A stretch of DNA of 56,825 nucleotides, taken from the NCBI GenBank assembly GCA_017402445.1, contig JAFPME010000042.1, positions 1 through 56,825 on the forward strand, in the 5' to 3' direction. The notes below the pieces were generated by a model. That model was not told where the DNA came from and did no database searches. It saw nothing but the letters and a program-made list of their open reading frames with translations. Within the stretch, counting starts at the first letter, position 1. The number at the start of each line of letters is the position of its first letter. The DNA comes from Prevotella sp. (GTDB taxonomy: Bacteria; Bacteroidota; Bacteroidia; Bacteroidales; Bacteroidaceae). Made by a program: the position numbers and the translations under genes. Positions 15,476 through 46,369 of the stretch are shown here, one piece after another.

Positions 15476-15596
15476 CAAAAAAAAACGGGAACCGCCAAAT
15501 CTGTGCTCCTTTTCGCTCTTCGGAACCTCCTGATGCTGAATCCTTTCTGTGCGCGAAGGGTTGCAGAAAAGTGCCGCGAAGCTTCGGATTTGCTGC

Positions 15597-15853
15597 CAAA
15601 CGGGCGCGGAAACATTGCCAAACGGGCGTGGACGGGAAGGAATATCAGTGATTTTGCGCAGCAATTTCACTGATATTGCACGGCAATTTCACTGATTTTC
15701 CTGCGCAAAATCAGTGAAATGGCAACAGCTGACGGCTGCTCTGACAACACAACCGCGCCCTTCTGGCAATGCAACCGCGATCTTCTTGCAACACGACTGC
15801 GTCTTTCCGGCAACGCGTCCGCGCCTTTCCGTCAGCCCTCGTGCAGCCCTTCA
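15597..15853. repeat. 22-bp periodic array (about 12 units)
   Basis: Degenerate tandem units with an exact 22-bp step. They can be cut as 15-bp cores plus 7-bp spacers; cores begin at 15597, 15619, 15641 and so on to 15839. Core types change along the array: CAAACGGGCG(C/T)GGA twice, then four TCA-S-TGA odd palindromes such as AATATCAGTGATTTT, then units of the type AACCGCGNNCTT with spacers such as GCAACAC. The first type is close to the reverse complement of the last. It lies between the divergent rsmA and frr promoters. No protein-coding signal. Confidence 0.8.
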
Positions 15854-43432: not shown

Positions 43433-44464
43433 ATGATGACCTTACAGGCTTTTCTTGACGAGTGGAACAACGACAGCGACCGCGTGCTGGTGCACACAAG
43501 CGGGTCGACGGGCGAGCCGAAGGCGCTGTGGGTGGAGAAGCGGCGCATGGAAGCTTCGGCACGCATCACGTGCGACTTCTTGGGGCTGCAGGCGGGCGAC
43601 ACGGCCTTGCTGTGCATGCCGCTCGACTTCATTGCAGGCAAGATGATGGTGGTGCGCGCGTTGGTGCGCGGGTTGCAGCTGATCAGTGTGGATCCGAGTG
43701 GAAGACCTTTCTCTGTCAACAGCTTGCAGTTAACGGCCGGAAAGCGTCATCCCGACATTGATTTTGCCGCCATGGTGCCGCTGCAGGTGTGGAACACCGT
43801 GCGCGTGGCGGAGGAGCGCGAGCGGCTGATGGCCGTGCGGCACCTCATCATCGGTGGCGGTGCCATTGACGACGAGCTGGCCCGCGAGCTGCGGCAGTTC
43901 CCCAACGCTGTGTGGAGCACGTATGGCATGACGGAGACTCTGTCGCACATCGCCCTCCGGCGGCTCAGCGGCCCCGAGACGAGCGAGTGGTACACGCCCT
44001 TCGAGGGTGTGGAAGTGATGACGGACGGCGACGGCTGTCTGGTCATTGATGCGCCGCAGGTGTGCGCAGAGACGCTCGTGACGAACGACATCGCCGAGGT
44101 GGTTACGACGACGGCCGCCGACGGTCGGCGGGTGGTCAGGTTCCGCATCGTCGGGCGCCGCGACAACGTGATCTGTTCGGGTGGTCTGAAGATACAGATT
44201 GAGGAGGTAGAGCGCCTTCTGCGCCCTCATCTTGGCTCCGATTTCCTCATCACGAAGCGCGCTGACACGAAGTATGGCGAGGCCGTCGTGTTATTATATA
44301 AGAAAGGAGAATGCCGGGAGGAAGACCTGCGCGCGGTTTGTCGGCGCGTTCTTCCGAAGTATTGGGTTCCCCGCTTCTTTGTCGCTGCCGACGAGCTTCC
44401 ATACACTGCGACAGGGAAGCCCGCCCGACAGCAGGCGATGCTTCTCGCCCAAGATGTCCGATAG
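43433..44464 (+). CDS. menE: o-Succinylbenzoate-CoA ligase-like AMP-forming enzyme MenE
   Basis: Activates o-succinylbenzoate with ATP and CoA. At 343 residues it is the short Bacteroidetes form. ANL motifs are visible: VHTSGSTGEPKALWVEK (P-loop, near the N-terminus), HLIIGGGAIDDEL, VWSTYGMTETLSHIALR, RFRIVGRRDNVICSGGLKIQ and the C-terminal catalytic Lys in YTATGKPARQQ. The start may be the ATG at 43433 or the next one at 43436. It follows menD by 31 bp; menB and menC, which often lie between menD and menE, are absent here. Confidence 0.88.
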   Translation: MMTLQAFLDEWNNDSDRVLVHTSGSTGEPKALWVEKRRMEASARITCDFLGLQAGDTALLCMPLDFIAGKMMVVRALVRGLQLISVDPSGRPFSVNSLQLTAGKRHPDIDFAAMVPLQVWNTVRVAEERERLMAVRHLIIGGGAIDDELARELRQFPNAVWSTYGMTETLSHIALRRLSGPETSEWYTPFEGVEVMTDGDGCLVIDAPQVCAETLVTNDIAEVVTTTAADGRRVVRFRIVGRRDNVICSGGLKIQIEEVERLLRPHLGSDFLITKRADTKYGEAVVLLYKKGECREEDLRAVCRRVLPKYWVPRFFVAADELPYTATGKPARQQAMLLAQDVR

Positions 44465-44652
44465 CCCTTCATGCTGCTATTCTGATGTGAATATGCTCTG
44501 TGAATTATGCTTACAAAATAACATTTATTATACGAAATTACGGTGGGTTTTCCAAAATAAAAGTCAGACGGACGCGTACACGCGAAATATGAGAAAGTTA
44601 TAAAACGCTGGAAACAAACGACTTGTGTTTTCTTTACATTTTTTGCGCTTTC

Positions 44653-44755
44653 AAAATGACTCATTTTACACTTCAAAATGGGCCGTTTCCGCGCGCAGAA
44701 TGATTCATTTTGGCGAGCAAAACGGGCCGTTTCGTGATGTAAAATGGGCCATTTT
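44653..44755. repeat. 22-bp periodic array of five odd palindromes
   Basis: Five 15-bp palindromic cores are centred at 44660, 44682, 44704, 44726 and 44748, an exact 22-bp step, separated by 7-bp spacers. Cores: AAAATGACTCATTTT, AAAATGGGCCGTTTC, AGAATGATTCATTTT, AAAACGGGCCGTTTC and AAAATGGGCCATTTT. Two core types (TGA-N-TCA and GGGCC) are mixed. The first and last are perfect odd palindromes. A possible weak sixth unit is CGGAA..TTCCG, centred at 44771. No coding potential. Confidence 0.9.
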
Positions 44756-45093
44756 GAAAAACGGAAAGAAAAATCTTCCGGTTTTGTCCGATTCTTTTAT
44801 CAAAACAAGCGCTTCCGTCTTCGTAGAATGAAAGAAAATGTGTACCCGTTTTTTCGGTATGAAATATTTACAATCATGGCGTGATTTCCTGCCGTTATAC
44901 CGGTACAGGATCCTATTCGGTTAATTCGCTTACATCGAACTCACGTGGCCGTCATTGCGCCGCGCGGCCTCTTTGTTGACGAGGAGGCGTTCGCAGGATG
45001 CCAGAACCCGAGGGAGTTTATCATGATGTTCTATAACAACAAGGACACGAAGCGGGAAACGCTGATTCTCAAAACGTTTCTTCTTGGCGTAAG

Positions 45094-45179: not shown

Positions 45180-46325
45180 TCAGCCTTCGCGATAGAAGTC
45201 GAGACTCTGGCGGATGTCCTCGTCGGTGACGCTCTGGTTGATGCGGATGTCGCCGATGTCGGAGAGCAGCGTGAAGTTGATGATGCCGTCGCGGTTCTTC
45301 TTGTCGTGGCGCATGAGGTTGATGAGCGCGGGATAGTCGTCGCAGGTGATGGCCATCTGCCCGTAGTTCTCGCGGATGAGGCTGACGGTCTGGCGCAGTT
45401 TGTCGGTGGGAAATCCGCACTTCACCGCGCTGAGCCACAGTTCGCAAACGAGTCCGTAGGCCACGGCATAACCGTGGAGCACGGGGCGTCCCTGCTGCAT
45501 GGCAAAGCTCTCGAAGGCATGTCCTGCGGTGTGGCCGAGGTTCAGGGCCTTTCGCAGTCCTGTTTCCTTCGGGTCTTCGGTGACGATGCGTTCCTTCACT
45601 TCCACGCTTTTTTTCAGTTGAGAGCTGAGAGCTGAGAATTGGCTGGCGTTGATGCCGCTTTGTTCCGATTGGTTGTTCCTGTCGCTGCATTCGCCGGCCG
45701 TTTGTCTCGACAGGTAATCACACCTACTGTCGGTCAGCGGCAGACTGTCAGCCAGCAGCAAGGTCTCACTCCAGGTGGCCTCGTCGGCAATGAGGCTGTG
45801 CTTCAGCATCTCCGCATAACCTGAGAGTATGTTCTCGCGATCAAGCGTCTTGAGGAACAGTGTGCTCAGAATCACGGTGTGGGCTTCGCTGAAGACGCCG
45901 ATTTCGTTCTTCAGTCCGTTGAAGTTGATGCCCGTCTTGCCGCCGACGCTGGCGTCGACCATGGCGAGCAACGTGGTGGGAATATTGATGAAGTTGATGC
46001 CTCGCTTGAAAGTGCTGGCTGCGAATCCGCCCAGGTCGGTCACCATTCCGCCGCCCAGATTGATGAGCAGCGAATGGCGTGTGGCTCCGTTTGCGCTCAG
46101 TTCCTTCCATACGTGTGCGATGCTCTGCAGGTCTTTGTGTGTGTCACCTGCCGGAATGGTGATGGTCTTGGCTCCGCGCAGACAGAGGAAAGAAGCAATC
46201 AGTGGCCAGCATGCCCGTTCTGTGTTTTCGTCCAAGACTACGAAAATCTTGTCGTGCTCGCATTCTGAGATGGCAATGGTTAGTTCTTGTTGCAGGTTCT
46301 TCGAAATAATAATGCTCTGTTTCAT
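45180..46325 (-). CDS. aroB: 3-Dehydroquinate synthase
   Basis: Second step of the shikimate pathway, using NAD+ and a divalent metal. From ATG 46325 the product has 381 residues, longer than the usual ~350. Family motifs: INLGGGMVTDLGGFAASTFKRG (NAD site), PTTLLAMVDASVGGKTGIN, SGYAEMLKHSLI, EKERIV-like VKERIVTEDPKETGLRKALNLGHTAGHAFE (metal ligands). An insert of about 40 residues (with SRQTAGECSDRNNQSEQS and SQFSALSSQLKKS) sits between SGYAEMLKHSLI and VKERIVTED. Its DNA (45610-45750) contains CAGTTGAGAGCTGAGAGCTG, typical of intergenic repeats. An upstream ATG at 46346 could add seven residues. Confidence 0.9.
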   Translation of the reverse strand: MKQSIIISKNLQQELTIAISECEHDKIFVVLDENTERACWPLIASFLCLRGAKTITIPAGDTHKDLQSIAHVWKELSANGATRHSLLINLGGGMVTDLGGFAASTFKRGINFINIPTTLLAMVDASVGGKTGINFNGLKNEIGVFSEAHTVILSTLFLKTLDRENILSGYAEMLKHSLIADEATWSETLLLADSLPLTDSRCDYLSRQTAGECSDRNNQSEQSGINASQFSALSSQLKKSVEVKERIVTEDPKETGLRKALNLGHTAGHAFESFAMQQGRPVLHGYAVAYGLVCELWLSAVKCGFPTDKLRQTVSLIRENYGQMAITCDDYPALINLMRHDKKNRDGIINFTLLSDIGDIRINQSVTDEDIRQSLDFYREG

Positions 46326-46361: not shown

Positions 46362-46369
46362 CAAATATA
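46362..46369 (-). promoter_or_regulatory. -7 promoter box for aroB
   Basis: Reads TATATTTG on the minus strand. It lies upstream of both candidate aroB starts. Confidence 0.65.

Follow-up and report, generated by a model that had tools for sequence, protein, structure and literature searches.

Arrays of 15-bp palindromes phased at 22 bp in Prevotella: families of unrelated sequence and their spacing along the chromosome

Repeats dispersed through a genome, sites set in phase and sites that organise the chromosome are all known separately. In the accessible part of its description, the BrickBuilt MITE of Porphyromonas gingivalis has a core set between a leader and a tail, with predicted long stems (PMC4596501), and the element reported here resembles it in being dispersed and intergenic, in belonging to the Bacteroidales and in having a repeat core of about 22-23 nt between flanks. 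REP and BIME sequences, as presented in the available portion of PMC3733652, are likewise short intergenic palindromes with many copies. Lrp-type dimers bind 13-17-bp sites whose centres lie two or three helical turns apart, and their oligomers wrap DNA (PMC2995911, in excerpt); our locus is like the multi-site operators of these Lrp/AsnC (feast-famine) proteins in dyad size and centre spacing, with 15-bp dyads whose centres are 22 bp apart. A further likeness is to the SegB sites of Sulfolobales, which, in the excerpted text of PMC12284271, are many, specific and scattered, and where SegB compacts and loops the DNA, a role that would be putative here.

The window array and the F1 element

The window, by which we mean the whole 56,825-nucleotide stretch of Prevotella sp. 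DNA analysed, contains the following features around the array.

43433..44464, + strand: menE-like AMP-binding gene, left neighbour (Pfam PF00501/PF13193)
44501..44873, + strand: whole F1 element, about 373 bp, with a left flank carrying a CTTGTNTTTTCTTTACA motif, the five-unit array and a right flank
44653..44667, no strand: F1 unit 1, AAAATGACTCATTTT, perfect odd dyad of 15 bp, centre 44660
44675..44689, no strand: F1 unit 2, AAAATGGGCCGTTTC, 2 mismatches, centre 44682
44697..44711, no strand: F1 unit 3, AGAATGATTCATTTT, 1 mismatch, centre 44704
44719..44733, no strand: F1 unit 4, AAAACGGGCCGTTTC, 1 mismatch, centre 44726
44741..44755, no strand: F1 unit 5, AAAATGGGCCATTTT, perfect odd dyad, centre 44748
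45180..46325, - strand: aroB-like 3-dehydroquinate synthase gene, right neighbour (Pfam PF01761/PF24621, codon-model call)

An earlier note on this DNA had read five 15-bp odd palindromes at 22-bp steps with centres from 44660 to 44748, and our re-reading bore out all of these positions. The step is exactly 22 bp, and the mismatches are 0, 2, 1, 1 and 0 out of the seven pairs of each 15-bp dyad. When the window was scanned for in-register palindrome triples with at most two mismatches, four were found at period 22 and 0-1 at each of the 32 other periods in the range 12-44; the mean over 20 shuffled windows was 0.15 triples at period 22, against the four real ones. The array lies between the menE-like gene (+) and the aroB-like gene (-), which are convergent. 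The name menE is that of the earlier note, and Pfam supports the AMP-binding family only; the start of the aroB-like gene falls at 46325 by codon score and at 46364 by longest ORF.

The window array is the core of a dispersed intergenic element of about 373 bp, which we call F1. Its edges were read by eye (left about CTGAATTATGCTT..., right ...TTTACAA) and are accurate to a few bases; the element model matches the window at 44513-44874, and 26 of the 40 forward BLAST matches that were scored begin at query position 12, which is 44501. The genome to which the window belongs is a MAG of 1.87 Mb in 44 contigs, 51% complete. Searching it with the first core returned 93 sites, against 0 with the reversed-pattern control, and a search with the flank motif returned 72 places. 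Once the core search, the BLAST search (40 of 95 candidates scored) and the flank motif had been merged by hand, at least 78 F1 places remained; these are matches, the arrays themselves having been viewed in the 61 own copies that were fetched. An additional, more diverged copy lies at C27:17874, beyond the 78.

The set of copies comprised 64 loci, 61 from the own genome (window included) and three from Prevotella sp. UBA2756. Five units with at most three mismatches were present in 63 of the 64 copies and four units in the remaining one; the positions next outside the arrays pass the same threshold in 13 of 128 cases, close to the 7% that chance would give. All 64 copies match the element model and 63 of them cover at least 334 model positions. 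The exception (L009) matches model positions 1-247 only, where its contig runs out, and was excluded from alignment A2 and from the length, conservation and duplication counts, which leaves 60 own copies. Over the model, 48 of these 60 are exactly 361 nt long, almost without indels. No reading frame is consistently open across 48 copies: the most open one has a mean of 2.3 stops per copy and is fully open in single copies. F1 as a protein-coding element was rejected on this ground.

Unrelated families, their spacing and their gene context

A second array of the same geometry is found elsewhere in the window.

15641..15721, no strand: F2 array, four units AATATCAGTGATTTT, AATTTCACTGATATT, AATTTCACTGATTTT and AAAATCAGTGAAATG at 22-bp steps

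Its units start at 15641, 15663, 15685 and 15707, with 1, 1, 2 and 3 mismatches. The earlier note had placed this array at 15597; the array and its 22-bp geometry are real, but the palindromes start at 15641, and what begins at 15594 is a direct repeat of 22 bp that has no dyads. Two more 22-bp direct repeats lie ahead of the F2 array, at 15594-15632, and four more follow it at 15740-15829 (consensus TCTGGCAACACAACCGCGCCCT).

The F2 core is AATNTCANTGANATT, with four units in the copies read, and a third family, F3, has the core GACC-N7-GGTC and forms three five-unit arrays in the own genome. A de novo scan of six own contigs and the window (753 kb, with a similarity filter applied) gave 43 arrays at period 22, against two in total across 24 other periods. 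The families represented, at least three in number (F1, F2 and F3), have the geometry in common and are unrelated in sequence. When the same 753 kb were scanned with family profiles, we found 33 F1, 10 F2 and two F3 arrays, and no F1 or F2 profile array at any of nine other periods. The idea of the earlier note that such arrays form an undescribed class, alike in geometry and unlike in sequence, thus gains support from the three families at period 22 and from the arrays of relatives described below, and its proviso that shuffled DNA might do the same did not come true, the shuffles and control periods lying far below the period-22 counts. A-tract curvature was rejected as the common factor of the arrays, since F3 is without A-tracts.

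The arrays form a quasi-regular lattice in which non-F1 arrays avoid F1. Between the arrays of all families in the profile scan of 753 kb there are 38 gaps, with a minimum of 7.7 kb and a median of 14.2 kb; none is below 6.5 kb, where uniform placement would give 12.9, and the coefficient of variation is 0.40, with 0 of 20000 simulations equally regular. For F1 alone, the 49 gaps on all contigs with at least two places have a minimum of 6.6 kb, and among the 47 gaps on contigs of known length none is shorter than 6.5 kb, against 15.2 expected. A null drawn from real intergenic gaps predicted 11-14 gaps below 7.5 kb, and none was observed; gene spacing was therefore rejected as the origin of the lattice, as sampled real intergenic gaps do not reproduce it. 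None of 11 non-F1 arrays lies within 7.68 kb of F1, against 5.3 expected (P=3.8e-4), a P value that is somewhat post hoc because the threshold is the observed minimum, and one of the 11 arrays is doubtful. The lists differ in some members. C27:35349, counted as a non-F1 array in the de novo scan and in the F1-avoidance and intergenic-null lists, is doubtful, being an 11-bp tandem repeat, and is absent from the profile scan; the F2 arrays C15:24346 and C15:7891, the latter degenerate (mismatches 2, 2, 3 and 3), are present in the profile scan and missing from the F1-avoidance and intergenic-null lists. A two-unit F2-like stretch near C27:39605, in none of the array lists, would split a gap of 34.9 kb; its distance from the doubtful C27:35349 is about 4.3 kb.

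The spread of these sites over the chromosome is non-random, as is that of chromosome-organising sites such as matS, parS and SegB sites. Since unrelated sequences exclude each other, we infer that homologous recombination between copies cannot explain the exclusion. The same exclusion between unrelated sequences weighs against the possibility, in our view unlikely, that F1 (with F2 and F3) is a non-autonomous mobile element, spread by a transposase and showing target immunity, so that a bound array would block insertion within several kb. Target immunity is a property of some transposons, and the minimum spacing would fit it, as would the many near-full-length intergenic copies of about 0.4 kb, almost without indels, and the 84-89% identity to the window copy at 23 of the 40 forward matches that were scored. 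However, no signal of target-site duplication was found in 60 copies (mean match 1.17, against 1.07 +-0.17 with shuffled partners), with the proviso that a short one could escape detection because the F1 ends are uncertain by a few bases. Terminal inverted repeats were not seen by eye in the 64 copies, F1 was not found by blastn in phage and plasmid collections, nor its pattern in viral contigs, and in a comparison of eight sites, one (L023/L094) proved to be common to two species over its whole length.

Own arrays of all families lie in called intergenic gaps in 42 of 44 cases. These 42 classified arrays comprise 18 in convergent, 11 in divergent and 13 in tandem gaps, and the convergent share is enriched over background gaps of at least 100 bp (18/42 vs 30/241, p=1.2e-5). 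Convergent gaps are also enriched in the congener G235 (8/19 vs 19/125, p=0.01), and strand switches of both kinds combined are not enriched there (p=0.21). The 64 F1 loci (61 own, three of UBA2756) are convergent in 15 cases, divergent in 17, tandem in 26 and unclassified in six, orientations that, like the other counts, rest on our own codon-model gene calls. Convergent placement is thus an enrichment and not a rule. The earlier note had argued that an array between convergent gene ends is not a promoter operator; the window array is indeed convergent, but as 17 of 58 F1 loci and 11 of 42 own arrays are divergent, the argument does not hold generally.

A BIME-like topoisomerase-loading element would also be expected to prefer convergent gaps, in which the arrays are enriched in these two genomes: gyrase, which binds BIMEs, would wrap the phased dyads where convergent transcription piles up positive supercoils, at about one element per supercoil domain. 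The phased array of about 80-110 bp, the spacing of about 14 kb and the geometry common to unrelated sequences agree with such loading, but the near-invariant half-site letters are stricter than a reader of shape only needs, and the own F1 units are without the GTAG/CGTC tag of REPs. We regard this explanation as distinctly unlikely.

Arrays in related genomes

The earlier note had allowed that absence from all close relatives would speak against its reading; this did not come true, as arrays occur in UBA2756 and in other congeners. Prevotella sp. UBA2756 has at least 38 F1 places, some of them partial (e.g. C57:17924 and C7:81634), from a BLAST search in which 40 of 53 candidates were scored and the short match C62:19255 was left out. 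Twenty places were viewed: 19 have five in-register units by reading, and one (L099) is interrupted by two N. The outer half-sites are kept (AAAATG...CATTTT), and in many units self-complementarity is lost in the middle (AAAATGACGCATTTT, AGAATGCGTCATTTT). No gap between places, of 14 measured, is shorter than 10.1 kb, the minimum. The F1 pattern was found in seven stretches of the named genome collection, of which the three of UBA2756 match the element model; the stretches of Gottfriedia, Photobacterium, Algoriphagus and Lacrimispora fail it and were dropped as chance.

The sequence-only F1 model (R1) matches at least 90 of 299 genomes of the genus (E<=1e-3) and at least three of 295 genomes across the order (E<=1e-4), the own genome included in both, and these counts are lower bounds because 10 candidates per genome were scored, with F1-like cores favoured. 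Among the order-level matches, G557 is without a three-unit array at periods 15-39 and G494 has a 21-bp array. At 20 model-selected loci from 12 congeners, 17 show at least three consecutive dyads, with 22 as the best period (of 18-27) in all 17; the other three (L128, L130 and L140) have no three-unit array at two mismatches or fewer. The cores of these congener arrays differ between species (GAAACGGCCCATTTC, AATATGACTCATATT, AAAATAGCCTATTTT). Beside a six-unit array in L137, at about 1670-1770, we noticed a run of motifs resembling AGGACTTATGGGACTAATAGGACATATAGGCC, each about 11 bp long, which is half of the 22-bp period.

Because selection by the model favours period 22, an array-blind sample was drawn from five congeners, consisting of 20 stretches, each 20 kb long and taken at preset coordinates. 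It contained 11 triples at period 22, against 1.6 when shuffled; the next periods were 33 (7 vs 2.6 shuffled) and 42 (6 vs 1.8 shuffled). All four stretches of G235 held arrays, the four stretches (80 kb) of each of G016 and G024 held none, and G102 gave only three arrays in 198 kb. The layout is therefore present in several species of the genus and is not universal. Three outgroup genomes of other families (102,171 bases) gave one weak match only. Locus L249 of the same order and another family has, at 1308-1475, dyads at 21-bp steps (AAAATGCTTCATCTTTGATAC with its variants), in runs of four and three units, which is perhaps the same two-helical-turn principle in a distant relative.

The lattice was re-examined in G235, where a profile scan of 396 kb with the core RAAACGGNCCGTTTY gave 19 arrays at period 22 and none at periods 17-21 or 23-28. 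The minimum gap is 6.8 kb, and no gap is below 5 kb, against 3.9 expected (P=0.0009, or P=0.00125 with the intergenic null). The overall regularity was not significant (gap CV, P=0.20; P=0.10 in a stricter scan), and gaps of 62 and 43 kb are present. Thus the 22-bp geometry and the minimum distance replicate in G235 and the overall regularity does not.

Eight pairs of own and UBA2756 loci have a matching neighbour gene. In one (L023/L094) the site is shared throughout, element and flanks being 96% identical; in two the similarity breaks off at the element or close to it, and the remaining five have the gene in common and not the site. The two breaks would be expected if the arrays were junctions of segment exchange, where DNA transferred horizontally among related species would recombine. 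Indeed, the left flanks of L022/L100 are 94-100% identical per 50 bases up to a break inside F1, beyond which the right flanks are unrelated; in L072/L105 the left flanks are unrelated and the right flanks have 76-88% identity in windows at the element end, rising to 98-100% some 90 bases further on. However, these are only two of eight pairs, both between MAGs, and chimeric assembly at a repeat looks alike. Of the 72 F1 copies on contigs of known length, eight are also less than 1 kb away from a contig end (on own contigs C3, C5, C9, C17, C26, C27, C29 and C33), where 2.5 would be expected, and so the element may break short-read assemblies. The breaks in L022/L100 and L072/L105 may thus reflect segment exchange or chimeric MAG assembly, and as a general account of the arrays we hold segment exchange to be very unlikely.

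A putative homodimer site on duplex DNA, and known systems

When the five units of the 60 own F1 copies were compared, the information per position was mirror-symmetric about the unit centre (left half 1.7, 1.1, 1.9, 2.0, 0.9, 1.9 and 1.0; centre 0.3; right half 1.0, 1.9, 0.9, 1.9, 1.9, 1.2 and 1.5). In units 2, 3 and 5, Watson-Crick pairing within the unit equals or nearly equals that of shuffled columns; in unit 1 it is about 3 s.d. higher and in unit 4 about 3 s.d. lower. Mismatches of the A.C and G.U kinds are about equal (157 vs 145), and no per-array strand bias of mismatches was found in the 60 own copies. Since pairing is close to that of independent columns and A.C and G.U are about balanced, each half-site would count alone, as for a dimer on duplex DNA. 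By eye, half-site variation at unit positions 1, 5, 11 and 15 consists largely of CpG to TpG/CpA transitions (Y before G, R after C).

An RNA-level role, in which transcripts of the arrays would form hairpins, either of single units or of the array as a whole, and act as terminators or processing sites, appears most improbable to us. The window element does fold better than shuffles, with z of -4.6 and -3.6 on the two strands, but this is expected of any palindromic DNA; and the convergent enrichment, which speaks for such a role, has to be set against the 11 of 42 own arrays in divergent gaps. Covariation among 21 copies was below shuffles both for the mirror hairpin (57 pairs) and for five local hairpins, and the RNAalifold structure has one compensated pair out of 36; the mismatch balance and the missing strand bias point the same way. 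An Rfam search with four F1 copies (L006, L012, L017 and L018) returned only sub-threshold microRNA and lncRNA matches. Conservation that is mirror-symmetric and shows neither covariation nor strand bias thus speaks for a homodimer bound to duplex DNA and against RNA hairpins.

The earlier note had proposed a test for linked protein families across genomes, and we looked at the Lrp/AsnC family for such a link. AsnC-domain proteins are not tied to F1, as judged from eight genomes and a genus search: all eight genomes have two or three, whether F1 is present or absent (three in the two F1 genomes, two in the six others). The third Lrp/AsnC paralogue of the own genome, L046 490-954 (G000:C42:5189-5653), has its end some 200 bp short of an F1 element. 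It was rejected as the F1 partner because close relatives are widespread in genomes of the genus without an F1-model match, e.g. G254 (98% identity) and G007.

The reading we prefer, tentatively and with slightly more doubt than belief, is that the arrays are rows of homodimer sites acting as chromosome nodes or insulators that divide segments of about 14 kb. Each array would be a row of sites for a homodimeric protein binding duplex DNA. Centres 22 bp apart would correspond to two helical turns and would place four or five dimers on one face of the DNA, where they might join into one oligomer and bend or wrap about 80-110 bp, presumably cooperatively. Sitting in intergenic gaps, preferably convergent ones, and kept about 7-10 kb or more apart, the arrays could then cut the chromosome into segments of about 14 kb, for example supercoil or loop domains, which would be the reason for their spacing. 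As the three families agree in geometry and differ in sequence, either paralogous proteins of one oligomer geometry or a single protein reading mainly shape would be expected. F1 is conserved as a whole element of about 373 bp, and the array may therefore ride on something else.

More broadly, Prevotella may possess a sequence-flexible and geometry-strict system in which unrelated, equivalent and mutually exclusive families mark the chromosome about every 14 kb, a proposition for which we find belief and doubt evenly balanced. The chromosomes of E. coli and Salmonella have topological domains of the order of 10 kb, according to the part of PMC10642903 that was available. The array spacing of about 14 kb is close to this scale, and the two might be the same thing. 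To our knowledge, what determines the borders of topological domains is an open question. A lattice of domain-like scale that can be read from sequence, if true, would give a direct handle on these borders and allow a test of whether they are encoded, and F1, F2 and F3, with their common layout and different sequences, would be natural swap experiments. In a literature search largely outside subscription journals and preprints, none of the titles and opening lines of abstracts listed describes arrays that differ in sequence, keep to a single strict geometry, exclude one another and are evenly spaced.

Compared with BrickBuilt, as far as the accessible part of PMC4596501 describes it, F1 differs in several respects. 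BrickBuilt has direct repeats in variable number, from 1 to 22.8, whereas 63 of 64 F1 copies hold exactly five dyads; BrickBuilt has IS5-like terminal inverted repeats (GAGACCTTTGCA), of which none were seen by eye in the F1 copies; and, unlike BrickBuilt, F1 has a geometry and a spacing lattice in common with unrelated families and gives no duplication signal. REPs, in the portion of PMC3733652 available, are palindromes of 20-40 bp, most of them GTAG- or CGTC-tagged, the GTAG kind being tied to RAYT transposases. F1, in contrast, has odd dyads of 15 bp phased at 22 bp, with a pattern of conservation that agrees with duplex DNA. By eye, neither tag occurs in the own F1 units, and CGTC is present inside many UBA2756 cores. 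The RAYT family (Y1_Tnp, PF01797) has one match in the own MAG (51% complete), none in UBA2756 (76% complete) and matches in four of eight genomes overall. The operators of Lrp/AsnC proteins belong to the control regions of particular genes, in the excerpts of PMC2995911, whereas the present arrays number in the tens, are chromosome-wide and are putative binding sites. SegB sites, finally, are mostly intragenic and lie mainly near segAB in the excerpted PMC12284271, and the arrays described here are intergenic and spread out.
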